Origin: Rubellimicrobium aerolatum
GTDB lineage: Bacteria; Pseudomonadota; Alphaproteobacteria; Rhodobacterales; Rhodobacteraceae
Direction of reading: 5' to 3'
Assembly: GCF_017872975.1 (NCBI RefSeq)
Contig: NZ_JAGGJP010000002.1
Span: 124,001 to 188,000, forward strand
Length of the DNA stretch: 64,000 nucleotides
Part shown: piece after piece, positions 8,238 through 37,539 of the stretch
How the letters are laid out: each line of letters starts with the position of its first letter
Position numbering within the stretch: the stretch's first letter is position 1
Notes under the pieces: generated by a model
The model's database searches: none
The model's input: only the letters and a program-made list of their open reading frames with translations
What the model was told of the DNA's origin: nothing
Made by a program: the position numbers and the translations under genes

Positions 8238-8270
8238 GCGCGCCGGCGGCCCCCCACGCCCGCGCCGCCC

Positions 8271-8295
8271 TCTCAACTTGGCCCAAATACGCAAG
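8271..8295 (-). repeat. Short conserved intergenic motif (GCGTATTTGGGCCAAGTTGAGAG)
   Basis: Read on the minus strand, CTTGCGTATTTGGGCCAAGTTGAGAG recurs almost unchanged at 56986-57012 (one extra base). A looser version occurs near 13706. The function is unknown. It may be a 3-prime-end element typical of Rhodobacterales genomes. Confidence 0.5.
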
Positions 8296-8373
8296 CCCCG
8301 CCTCCGCCCGCGCCGCGCGCTGCAGGGATGGCCCCCCGCCCACGCCAGCGGAGCCGCCGCTTCCCGGTCCCCC

Positions 8374-8714
8374 ATTCCCTAAAAGGCCACGCAACACGCA
8401 ACGCCCGTTGCTGTCAGGCCCCGTTAACGCCCCCGTGCGATTCTCCCTCCCACGCGGCCCGGAGTCTGCCCTCCGCCCCGCCCATCCCTTGAGGCCCGCC
8501 CACGCGGCCTCCCCCCGCGCCGGAGGCCCCCCGCCCCCGGTCGGTCTGTTTGACAGCGCGACGGGACCGCTCCCCCCGTCGCCCCCTGGGCAACCGCAAG
8601 GCCCCAGCCGCCGGCGCGTCGTGCACGCGCCTCCCGTGGGCCGGGCAGTCAATCCGGCACCACGGCCCCATGCCCCCCGGGCCGCGCGTCGGCAGAACGC
8701 CCGCGCGGCCCGGG
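8374..8714 (-). repeat. Structured repeat, copy A (inverted relative to copy B)
   Basis: About 341 bp that match 24646-25001 in the opposite orientation. Identical blocks are 67 bp at 8603-8669, 27 bp at 8530-8556 (with CTGT-CAA-ACAG) and 20 bp at 8387-8406; the rest is diverged. At the right end, 8676-8688 pairs perfectly with 8702-8714 (13 bp) around a 13-base loop holding GTTCTG on the minus strand. The same loop and a stem with compensatory changes exist in copy B. No transposase, terminal target duplication or credible open frame is present. It could be a structured RNA or a non-autonomous mobile element. Confidence 0.8.
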
Positions 8715-8801
8715 AGGGTCATGGACTCACCCCGCCCTTGGGGGGTTGACGACCCCCCCGGGGACGGGCGTAGGCAAGGCTCGTCCCAACACGAGACCCC
8801 C

Positions 8802-24358: not shown

Positions 24359-24568
24359 ATGCCCAAGGGCACCGTGAAGTGGTTCAACACGACGAAAGGC
24401 TACGGCTTCATCGCCCCCGAGAACGGGGGCAAGGACATCTTCGTGCACATCTCGGCGGTGGAGCAGTCGGGTCTGACGGGGCTCGCCGACAACCAGCCGA
24501 TCGAGTTCGACCTCATCAGCGGCCGTGATGGGCGGGAGATGGCGGGGAACCTGCGAAAGTCGCAGTGA
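24359..24568 (+). CDS. Cold-shock protein (CspA family)
   Basis: A 69-residue single cold-shock domain that binds single-stranded RNA or DNA. RNP-1 is KGYGFIAP and RNP-2 is DIFVHISA. The protein begins MPKGTVKWFNTT, fixing the ATG at 24359; an ATG five codons earlier is also in frame. The 115-bp leader after the preceding terminator could hold a thermosensitive structure, but no cold-box is recognised. A terminator-like hairpin follows at 24594. Confidence 0.95.
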   Translation: MPKGTVKWFNTTKGYGFIAPENGGKDIFVHISAVEQSGLTGLADNQPIEFDLISGRDGREMAGNLRKSQ

Positions 24569-24593: not shown

Positions 24594-24620
24594 AGGCCGG
24601 GGCGAGGGCTCCGGCCTTTG
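24594..24620 (+). terminator. Terminator of the cold-shock gene
   Basis: AGGCCGG (24594-24600), 10-base loop, CCGGCCT (24611-24617), then TTG. A 7-bp stem 25 bp after the stop codon. Confidence 0.55.
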
Positions 24621-24645
24621 GCGTCCTTGGGGAGTCCCATGCCCG

Positions 24646-25001
24646 GCCGGCGCGGCTGTTCTGGCGCGCGCCGGCGGGGATGGGGGCCGTGGTGCCGGAT
24701 TGACTGCCCGGCCCACGGGAGGCGCGTGCACGACGCGCCGGCGGCTGGGTCTTTGCGGCTCCCCTGCGGTGGGGGGCCTCCCAGGTGGAGACGGGGCCAG
24801 CGGGCCCGTCGCCTGTCAAACAGACCGACCGGGGGCGGGTGAGCCTCCGGCGCAGGGGGAGGCCGCGGGGTGCGGGCCTCGTGGGGCGGGCGGAGGTCAT
24901 GACGGACTCCGGGCCGCGTATGGGGGGAGTTGTGCCACGCGAGGAGCTAACGACGTCCGACAGCATCGGGCGTTGCGTGTTGCGTGGGATTTTAGGGAAC
25001 G
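24646..25001 (+). repeat. Structured repeat, copy B
   Basis: Matches 8374-8714 in inverted orientation. A stem of 9 bp (24646-24654 with 24667-24675) encloses a loop with GTTCTG. The 67-bp identical block is 24683-24749 and contains GGCGCGT-GCACG-ACGCGCC, itself a hairpin. The 27-bp block CTGTCAAACAGACCGACC... is 24813-24839 and the 20-bp block GGGCGTTGCGTGTTGCGTGG is 24968-24987. Between the blocks the copies differ by many substitutions and small indels, so selection on the blocks rather than recent duplication is likely. Confidence 0.8.
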
Positions 25002-25020
25002 GGGACGGCGCGAGGGGAGC

Positions 25021-25093
25021 GTAGGGCGGGATTCAGCCCGCCGCGGGATTGCCCCGGCGCGAGCCGCCGCTGGCGGGCTGAAGCCCGCCCTAC
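25021..25093. repeat. REP-like doublet 1
   Basis: Two palindromic units in opposite orientation: GTAGGGCGGGATTCAGCCCGCC (25021-25042, two parts GTAGGG and GGCGGGC-type stem) and its mirror ending CCCGCCCTAC (25072-25093). The outer ends GTAGGG...CCCTAC are the signature of the family seen also at 25113 and 54126. Confidence 0.75.
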
Positions 25094-25112
25094 GGGGGCT
25101 CGGGAAGGCTGG

Positions 25113-25174
25113 GTAGGGTGCACTTCAGCGCACCGGGGAGGCGCGGGGAGGTGGTGCGCTGAAGCGCACCTTAC
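25113..25174. repeat. REP-like doublet 2
   Basis: The left unit 25113-25134 (GTAGGGTGCACTTCAGCGCACC) and right unit 25153-25174 (ending GCGCACCTTAC) mirror each other. The stem sequence differs from doublet 1 (GGTGCGCT instead of GGCGGGCT) while the TTCAG/CTGAA turn is kept, so the palindrome but not its bases is conserved. Confidence 0.75.
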
Positions 25175-25344
25175 GGGATCGCCCATGTCGGGCGGAGTTC
25201 ACCCGCCCAAGGGCAGCACGACATGAAGCAAACCCCGCTCAACGAGACGGGGGCGCTTCGACGGGCTTGAGCCATAGGGTGGGTGGTTCTCCGCGGAACG
25301 CGGCGAGCTACGATCCCTACGCTTGCTTACCAAAGCGTTACTCA

Positions 25345-28106: not shown

Positions 28107-28221
28107 GGCACGGGTCCGATCCAGCGATTTCGAACCCAATATGCGGGAACAGTCGCGAACATCCGGTTAAAGCCGGAGCGTTCTTCGCGGCGAGTCCCTG
28201 AAAACTTGATTGAAATGCCGG

Positions 28222-28277
28222 GTCGGTCGGGCCGGGTCAGTCGGGGCAGGTCAGTCGGGGCGGGTCAGTCGGGGCGG
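28222..28277. repeat. 14-bp tandem repeat at the sdhE 3-prime end
   Basis: Four near-identical 14-bp units (consensus GTCAGTCGGGGCGG) run across the sdhE stop codon at 28265-28267. On the minus strand each unit reads as Arg-Pro-Asp followed by TGA, so extra units fall outside the coding frame. Slippage would leave the protein intact. Confidence 0.75.
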
Positions 28278-37418: not shown

Positions 37419-37490
37419 GCGGGCGCGTGGGGCGGGGTTCGGCCTGCCATGCTCCACCTGACACGGGAACGCGGGTCGGAGCCGTCGCGT

Positions 37491-37512
37491 GGCGGGGTGA
37501 ACCCCGCCCTAC
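37491..37512. repeat. Single REP-like palindrome
   Basis: GGCGGGGTGAACCCCGCCCTAC is a right-hand REP-like unit (stem GGCGGGG/CCCCGCC, end CCCTAC) between the convergent lipoprotein and cytochrome genes. Confidence 0.65.
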
Positions 37513-37539
37513 GGGGTGGAGGTGTGTCCTCCCGGTGGG

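Follow-up and report, generated by a model that had tools for sequence, protein, structure and literature searches.

A structured intergenic repeat family of Rubellimicrobium, apparently confined to the genus and kept alike within most of its genomes

Multi-copy ribosomal RNA genes are dispersed and structured and evolve in concert by recombination, and REP sequences are short. REPs and BIMEs, the repeats associated with RAYT transposases, are intergenic, palindromic and composite; according to the cited section, REPs usually exceed 100 per genome (PMC2817692). BOX, RUP and SPRITE of streptococci are, in the cited parts of their description, short interspersed intergenic repeats with predicted stem-loops and an enrichment between convergent genes, and BOX is modular (PMC3049150). 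The mobile/repeat sequence candidates (MRSC) from genome-wide RNA discovery are presented in the cited text as structured motifs with many copies per genome, inconsistently oriented to their neighbours and undecided between RNA and DNA (PMC11109978). Finally, HRC-8-4 and uORFC-8-2 are described, in the sections used here, as structured motifs limited to Rhodobacterales that sit mainly between cco operons or upstream of cysS (PMC8632094). The repeat family of Rubellimicrobium that we describe here has likenesses to all of these systems. It is set apart from HRC-8-4 and uORFC-8-2 by position. From BOX, RUP and SPRITE it is set apart by its description: it is found in other bacteria, its stems covary and its positional orthologues are homogenised within most genomes. 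The likeness to ribosomal RNA genes is one of behaviour only, since the element is not universal, is dispensable and has no known transcript.

The window, by which we mean the whole stretch of 64,000 nucleotides analysed here, contains two copies of the repeat, termed A and B. A DNA search of the window's own genome with copy B as the query recovered seven long copies including copy B itself, along with paired 5' and 3' pieces from shorter ones; once brought into the same orientation, all of them align as one family. Copy B (24632-24998, plus strand) runs from a GAGTCC left edge to the right block TTTTAGGGA, limits that mark the sequence shared with the six further long copies and leave its ends putative. 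The first module of this long form is a hairpin with a GTTCTG loop (24646-24675), whose 9-bp stem is formed by GCCGGCGCG (24646-24654) and CGCGCCGGC (24667-24675). The second is a hairpin CCGTGG/CCACGG (24687-24718, by eye), which by eye has an identical sequence across the seven long copies. It is followed by the P1 hairpin GGCGCGT-GCACG-ACGCGCC (24721-24739), which opens the family-wide domain. From its coordinates and its sequence, the stretch 24740-24824 reads as a GGCGG linker, the PA helix (CTGGG 24745-24749 with CCCAG 24780-24784), TCTTTG (24750-24755), P2, P3 (24790-24810, by eye) and CAAACAG (24817-24823). The 3' box is GCTAACG (24946-24952) in place of the family consensus GTTAACG, and the right-hand block GGGCGTTGCGTGTTGCGTGG-GATTTTAGGGA of the own-genome copies lies at 24968-24998. 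All these modules are on the plus strand, as are the upstream gene for a cold-shock protein with a CSD domain (24359-24568) and, between this gene and copy B, a terminator-like hairpin GGCCGGGGCGAGGGCTCCGGCC-TTT read from the sequence (24595-24619).

Copy A (8376-8728) is on the minus strand, reads right to left and lies upstream of a glutamine-amidotransferase gene read in the opposite direction. Its GTTCTG-loop hairpin (8676-8714) has a 13-bp stem made of CCCGGGCCGCGCG (8676-8688) and CGCGCGGCCCGGG (8702-8714). P1 is found at 8613-8631, the CTGTCAAACAG block, which takes the CAAAGAGC position of the family, at 8546-8556 and the 3' box GTTAACG at 8422-8428. The first-pass annotation had described the two GTTCTG hairpins, with their coordinates, stems and loops, exactly to the base; GTTCTG is present in both loops, in copy A on the minus strand, and the second hairpin that had been reported is P1 in both copies. 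The list of parts was too small: the repeat to which the GTTCTG hairpin contributes one module is several hundred bp long and has many copies. By eye, shared sequence runs past the element in own-genome copies, to the right of the 3' block at L107, L110 and L111 and at about 8240-8372 of the window; this may be an extra right-hand module or a larger duplication.

We built a model, R1, from the shared 5' domain of the repeat. It matches copy B at 24720-24824 (69.3 bits) and copy A at 8545-8632 (37.4 bits). At E up to 0.1, it yields 84 matches in seven of the eight Rubellimicrobium genomes, 2-27 per positive genome: 16 in the window's own genome (G000), 7 in G002, 2 in G003, 7 in G004, 8 in G005, 17 in G006 and 27 in G007; G001 gave no R1 match at this threshold. 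The G005 matches are individually weak (E 0.009-0.086). Judged by their sequences, there is little doubt that they belong to the family, because the eight copies are 96-100% identical to each other and carry its motif order. The R1 search favours intact copies; two 3' fragments (L021, L022) were seen in the own genome. We read 83 of the 84 matches, leaving out one from R. roseum, and used 80 copies for the analyses of context, flanks and identity, which exclude two copies in L174 and one in L189. Some copies are found at or near contig ends (L135 and L136, at both ends of G007 contig C110, as well as L127, L099 and L144), as expected if assemblers break at such repeats. G003 has only two matches (L168, L169) although its DnaB is 95% identical to that of the own genome, which suggests that copies were lost in its lineage.

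On the strand called plus, the order from 5' to 3' is P1, the GGCGG linker, helix PA, P3, CAAAGAGC, a variable stretch and the 3' box. Helix PA (CTGGG/CCCAG) encloses TCTTTGCG and the variable hairpin P2, and the 3' box, GTTAACGnnnnnTnAC, is followed by a small hairpin. Own-genome copies have CAAACAG as their CAAAGAGC block. Upstream of P1, several species carry an outer hairpin, interrupted by an internal loop, and then a hairpin P0, which mostly has GCCA in its apical loop (all by eye). The span from P1 to the 3' box measures 189-409 nt over 77 copies. P2 and TCTTTG are missing from the short forms, and long and short forms coexist in one genome; the make-up is therefore modular, with modules present or absent, as in BOX. 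Moreover, the unpaired motifs GGCGG, CAAAGAGC and GTTAACG vary little while the stems change, and the same holds for TCTTTGCG where P2 is present. Just to the right of the 3' boxes of R. mesophilum an inverted repeat, GACGCAACACC ... GGTGTTGCGTC with about 40-45 nt between its halves, is seen by eye; it follows 11 of the 15 copies inspected in this species (L115-L118, L120-L126), and the own genome has a related TGTTGCGTGG block.

The stems change in a way that preserves pairing. A structure-free alignment of 29 copies shows 15 of the 30 pairs with changes in both partners in one copy or more, and 86 double-sided cells compare with 31.6 +/- 4.0 in shuffles. Among 76 distinct copies, 221 copy-by-pair cells are changed on both sides, compared to 66.9 +/- 5.9 in shuffles, none of 500 of which was as high; these rows derive from 85 model-aligned matches, two of them doubtful, in an alignment fitted to the structure, and the cells count copies rather than independent events, while the shuffles do not keep relatedness. 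The covariation score of the 76 rows is 0.282 against 0.095 in shuffles, and it falls to 0.017-0.053 when the partner is slid by 1-3 columns. The outer stem of P0 lies outside the R1 model and its arms were left unaligned. Among the 48 copies used, which have a visible P0, on average 6.96 of 8 bases match, compared to 5.46 +/- 0.13 when arms are exchanged between copies and 5.82 +/- 0.12 when they are exchanged within a genome. For this comparison 49 of the 80 copies had been chosen beforehand, from which one duplicate was removed; it excludes the 16 own-genome and 8 G005 copies, because their upstream modules differ, as well as L127, which is cut off, and L130, L131, L141, L142, L143 and L145, which have no visible P0. 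A candidate pseudoknot between UCUUUG and CAAAGA is not supported: it shows no covariation, 10 of the 29 copies break one of its pairs and UCUUUG is absent from short forms.

That a base-paired structure is under constraint is thus well supported. The first-pass annotation had already argued for selected pairing, from two swapped pairs in the GTTCTG hairpin: counted outward from the loop, pairs 6 and 8 are C-G and G-C in copy A, and G-C and C-G in copy B. The swaps are correctly described, but as an argument by themselves they are weak, because the arms are partly self-complementary (they hold GCCGGC and CCCGGG) and because the seven long own-genome copies have two main kinds of stem and two kinds of loop, the loop being replaced in L004 and L007. 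The two swaps may be a single block exchange. The evidence that counts is the covariation of the adjoining 5' domain over many copies.

The positions of the copies are shared between species. By clustering up to two flanking proteins per side we found 69 cross-species pairs of copies with common neighbours, 27 on both sides, 26 upstream only and 16 downstream only, and none of the 69 shows a conflict in orientation. In one further pair, L123/L166, the common gene lies on opposite sides of the two copies. Positional orthologues of copy B are found in R. mesophilum (L129) and R. arenae (L171), and copy A has one, on the upstream side only, in the genome MAG15 (AVDCRST_MAG15; L141). At the OsmC locus the element is present in five of eight species, and none was seen by eye in the 900 nt read downstream of OsmC in the other three genomes. 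Since, in addition, one genome has no match and another only two, the element is dispensable, and not everything fits a required function.

Orthologous position does not predict similarity. Over 45 pairs of positional orthologues, from 77 copies and 18 orthologue sets compiled by hand, the mean identity is 0.739, compared to 0.737 +/- 0.005 for random cross-genome partners (750 of 2000 draws were as high); L135, L136 and L144, which are cut off before the 3' box, had been dropped from the 80 copies. The nearest neighbour is in the same genome for 67 of the 77 copies, compared to a mean of 15 and a maximum of 32 in label shuffles, and the closest relative is a paralogue in 45 cases and an orthologue in 3. 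This likeness is clear in G000 (15/16), G006 (16/17), G007 (22/23) and G005 (8/8) and not clear in the genomes with few copies, G002 (4/7), G004 (2/4) and G003 (0/2). Moreover, flanks have been exchanged. In ten triples, standing for about six exchanges, the left neighbour of a copy matches one copy of a second genome and the right neighbour another; single cases may be errors, as the assemblies are drafts, L107 is identical to L110 and paralogues could be among the neighbours. Four of the triples amount to about one exchange, in which own-genome L100 and L104 are set against L121, L183, L138 and L188. A plain assembly join is unlikely there, because L100 and L104 are only 79% identical. The swapped flanks suggest recombination between copies.

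We put at roughly 50% the probability that this is a structured repeat family, apparently confined to the genus, which has long been at fixed intergenic places and is kept alike within most genomes by recombination. Exchange between copies, by gene conversion and crossing-over, would account for the likeness, each copy would correspond to all or part of a small structured transcript, and copies would be held uniform because all serve the same partner. As to function, we would guess at a structured non-coding RNA present in many copies, transcribed from a single strand and binding one protein. A larger claim, which we regard as tentative and on balance improbable, is that these are large structured non-coding RNAs of a new, multi-copy class, with genes at fixed places across the genus that are homogenised like ribosomal RNA genes because every copy has to fit a single co-evolving protein or target. 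Small structured repeats of bacteria are often taken for drifting parasites. In this family the positions appear old and common to several species, and yet the sequence is renewed jointly within most genomes, where the exchanged flanks suggest that copies recombine. The family thus offers a natural system in which to ask whether such repeats are kept for function, and in which gene conversion between short dispersed copies can be measured. If the elements are transcribed, Rfam is lacking a large RNA family.

The first-pass annotation had left a choice between a non-coding RNA and a DNA cruciform site. Both readings stand, and the strand tests did not choose between them. A strand scan of G-U versus A-C gave no signal on the element and none on a 23S rRNA control either, a rough control in which three of four 23S loci were scanned with flanks attached. 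Clean helices, with two doubtful matches and gapped rows left out, contain 4 inner G-U and 8 inner A-C mismatches. The folding energy is barely below that of shuffled sequences on either strand (mean z -0.48 and -0.68; 29 copies scored of 43 submitted out of 80, the other 14 having been missed by the 3' box pattern). For 41 copies inspected, the plus strand of the 5' domain has a more stable fold than its complement, a comparison uncorrected for composition. We favour, from the kinds of motifs conserved, an element that acts as RNA, because varied loops and linkers are kept as the stems diverge, and because uniformity is what a common partner would lead one to expect. An element acting at the DNA level, as a cruciform or as protein-binding DNA (a nucleoid, gyrase or segregation site) like enteric composite repeats and with no need of a transcript, seems to us rather unlikely; it retains some weight because of the mismatch parity and because tandem contexts show no orientation preference (15 versus 21). 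It would also agree with the lack of any promoter or terminator of its own, or conserved upstream promoter, visible by eye, and the conserved GTTAAC box could be a protein site. However, apical loops, internal loops and linkers of such different kinds fit an RNA fold better, and with strand tests as weak as these, parity cannot be taken to show that a strand signal is absent. The GTTAACG box resembles the CtrA site, which is given as TTAA-N7-TTAA in the cited text (PMC6180460), a resemblance that we take as a lead only: the exact motif occurs in 1 of 77 copies and the loose TTAA-N7-T[TGA]A[AC] in 44, and copy B has CTAA in place of TTAA.

Both neighbours were called, with a simple gene caller based on codon usage, for 73 of the 80 copies. 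The element is found between convergent genes in 36 cases, between tandem genes in 36 and between divergent genes in 1, compared to 12, 80 and 60 of the 152 other gaps longer than 100 bp in the same loci. It thus shares with BOX its intergenic location and convergent bias, and the same bias was taken, in the cited passages, as suggestive of parasitism for BOX, RUP and SPRITE (PMC3049150). Selfish non-autonomous mobile repeats of this kind, tolerated mostly downstream of genes and alike through recent spread, would also be in line with a copy number ranging from 0 to 27 and with the near-identity of the eight G005 copies, of which L160, L162, L163 and L164 are without a shared neighbour. We nevertheless consider this explanation unlikely, as positions and orientations shared across species, combined with homogenised sequences, would require that insertion had recurred at identical sites and each time in one direction. 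Y1 transposase (PF01797) was found in none of the eight genus genomes, which are drafts and in part incomplete, whereas the control was found in 5 of 14. Reverse transcriptase (RVT_1) was found in one of the eight, while seven carry the element; this sole match, L231 (G000:C13:10639-11112), is in the window's own genome. Mobility of the RAYT/IS200 type or by a reverse transcriptase is rejected on these counts. Inspection by eye of the eight G005 copies, for which there is no close empty site for comparison, revealed neither the terminal inverted repeats nor the target-site duplications of a MITE. The genes that flank own-genome copies are ordinary and share no theme; of 20 proteins, 18 have a Pfam match. 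Terminator-like hairpins between the upstream gene and the element, in the window and by eye at L121, L129, L137 and L140, indicate that the element is not simply the 3' end of those genes.

Template switching between arms during replication, which can create stems and explain compensatory changes of several bases without selection on structure, although its role in maintaining short stems is called less clear in the cited text (PMC8794818), would suit the partly self-complementary arms of the GTTCTG hairpin and is very improbable for the family, as it gives no account of the same helices, at the same relative places and with conserved unpaired motifs, in different subfamilies.

Restriction to Rubellimicrobium is likely. 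Outside the genus, R1 had no match in 295 genomes of the family, 40 of relatives and 385 of the class (overlapping sets); the restriction is not proven, because the two large searches are insensitive, scoring only 10-13 candidates per genome, and the 295-genome search missed the eight copies of G005. When 61 genomes were searched with DNA, two weak matches lay outside the genus: L027 (E 3.1e-4) and L028 (E 7.9e-4), both resembling coding sequence by eye. Three matches to a 20-base pattern in other organisms are ascribed to chance: L046 and L056 have no R1 match up to E = 1, and L058 reaches 18.1 bits at E = 0.14 only. Viral contigs contained no exact match to this pattern.

Known families do not account for the element. 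Rfam 15 gave no match in the window at the gathering score, and at five loci searched with E up to 5 there was one sub-threshold 6S match (20.3 versus 46.4 bits), outside the element; a known Rfam family is rejected for lack of matches. Guide RNAs of IscB/TnpB (HEARO and kin) had no Rfam match at the five loci. The element is not a REP or BIME, given its length of several hundred bp, its 2-27 matches per positive genome and the lack of a Y1 transposase, and the finding of RVT_1 in one genome, against seven that carry the element, speaks against a group II intron or a retron. From MRSC it differs in having no Y1-type transposase and in its fixed positions across species. In the parts covered of the literature on Rubellimicrobium, Rhodobacteraceae repeats, BOX, CtrA, repeats with concerted evolution and structured-RNA discovery, we found no report of the family. 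As far as the cited text goes, 'repeat' refers to CRISPR only in the R. mesophilum genome paper (PMC4149006), and the genus name is absent from the main text of two RNA-discovery papers (PMC11109978, PMC8632094).

Two further kinds of repeat are found in the window. Short palindromes GGCGGGCTGAAGCCCGCCCTACGG and GTGCGCTGAAGCGCACC, at 25016-25180, adjoining copy B, and at 37490-37516, are perhaps a separate small REP-like family. Finally, 28221-28276 consists of tandem units of 14 bases, GGTCAGTCGGGGCG.
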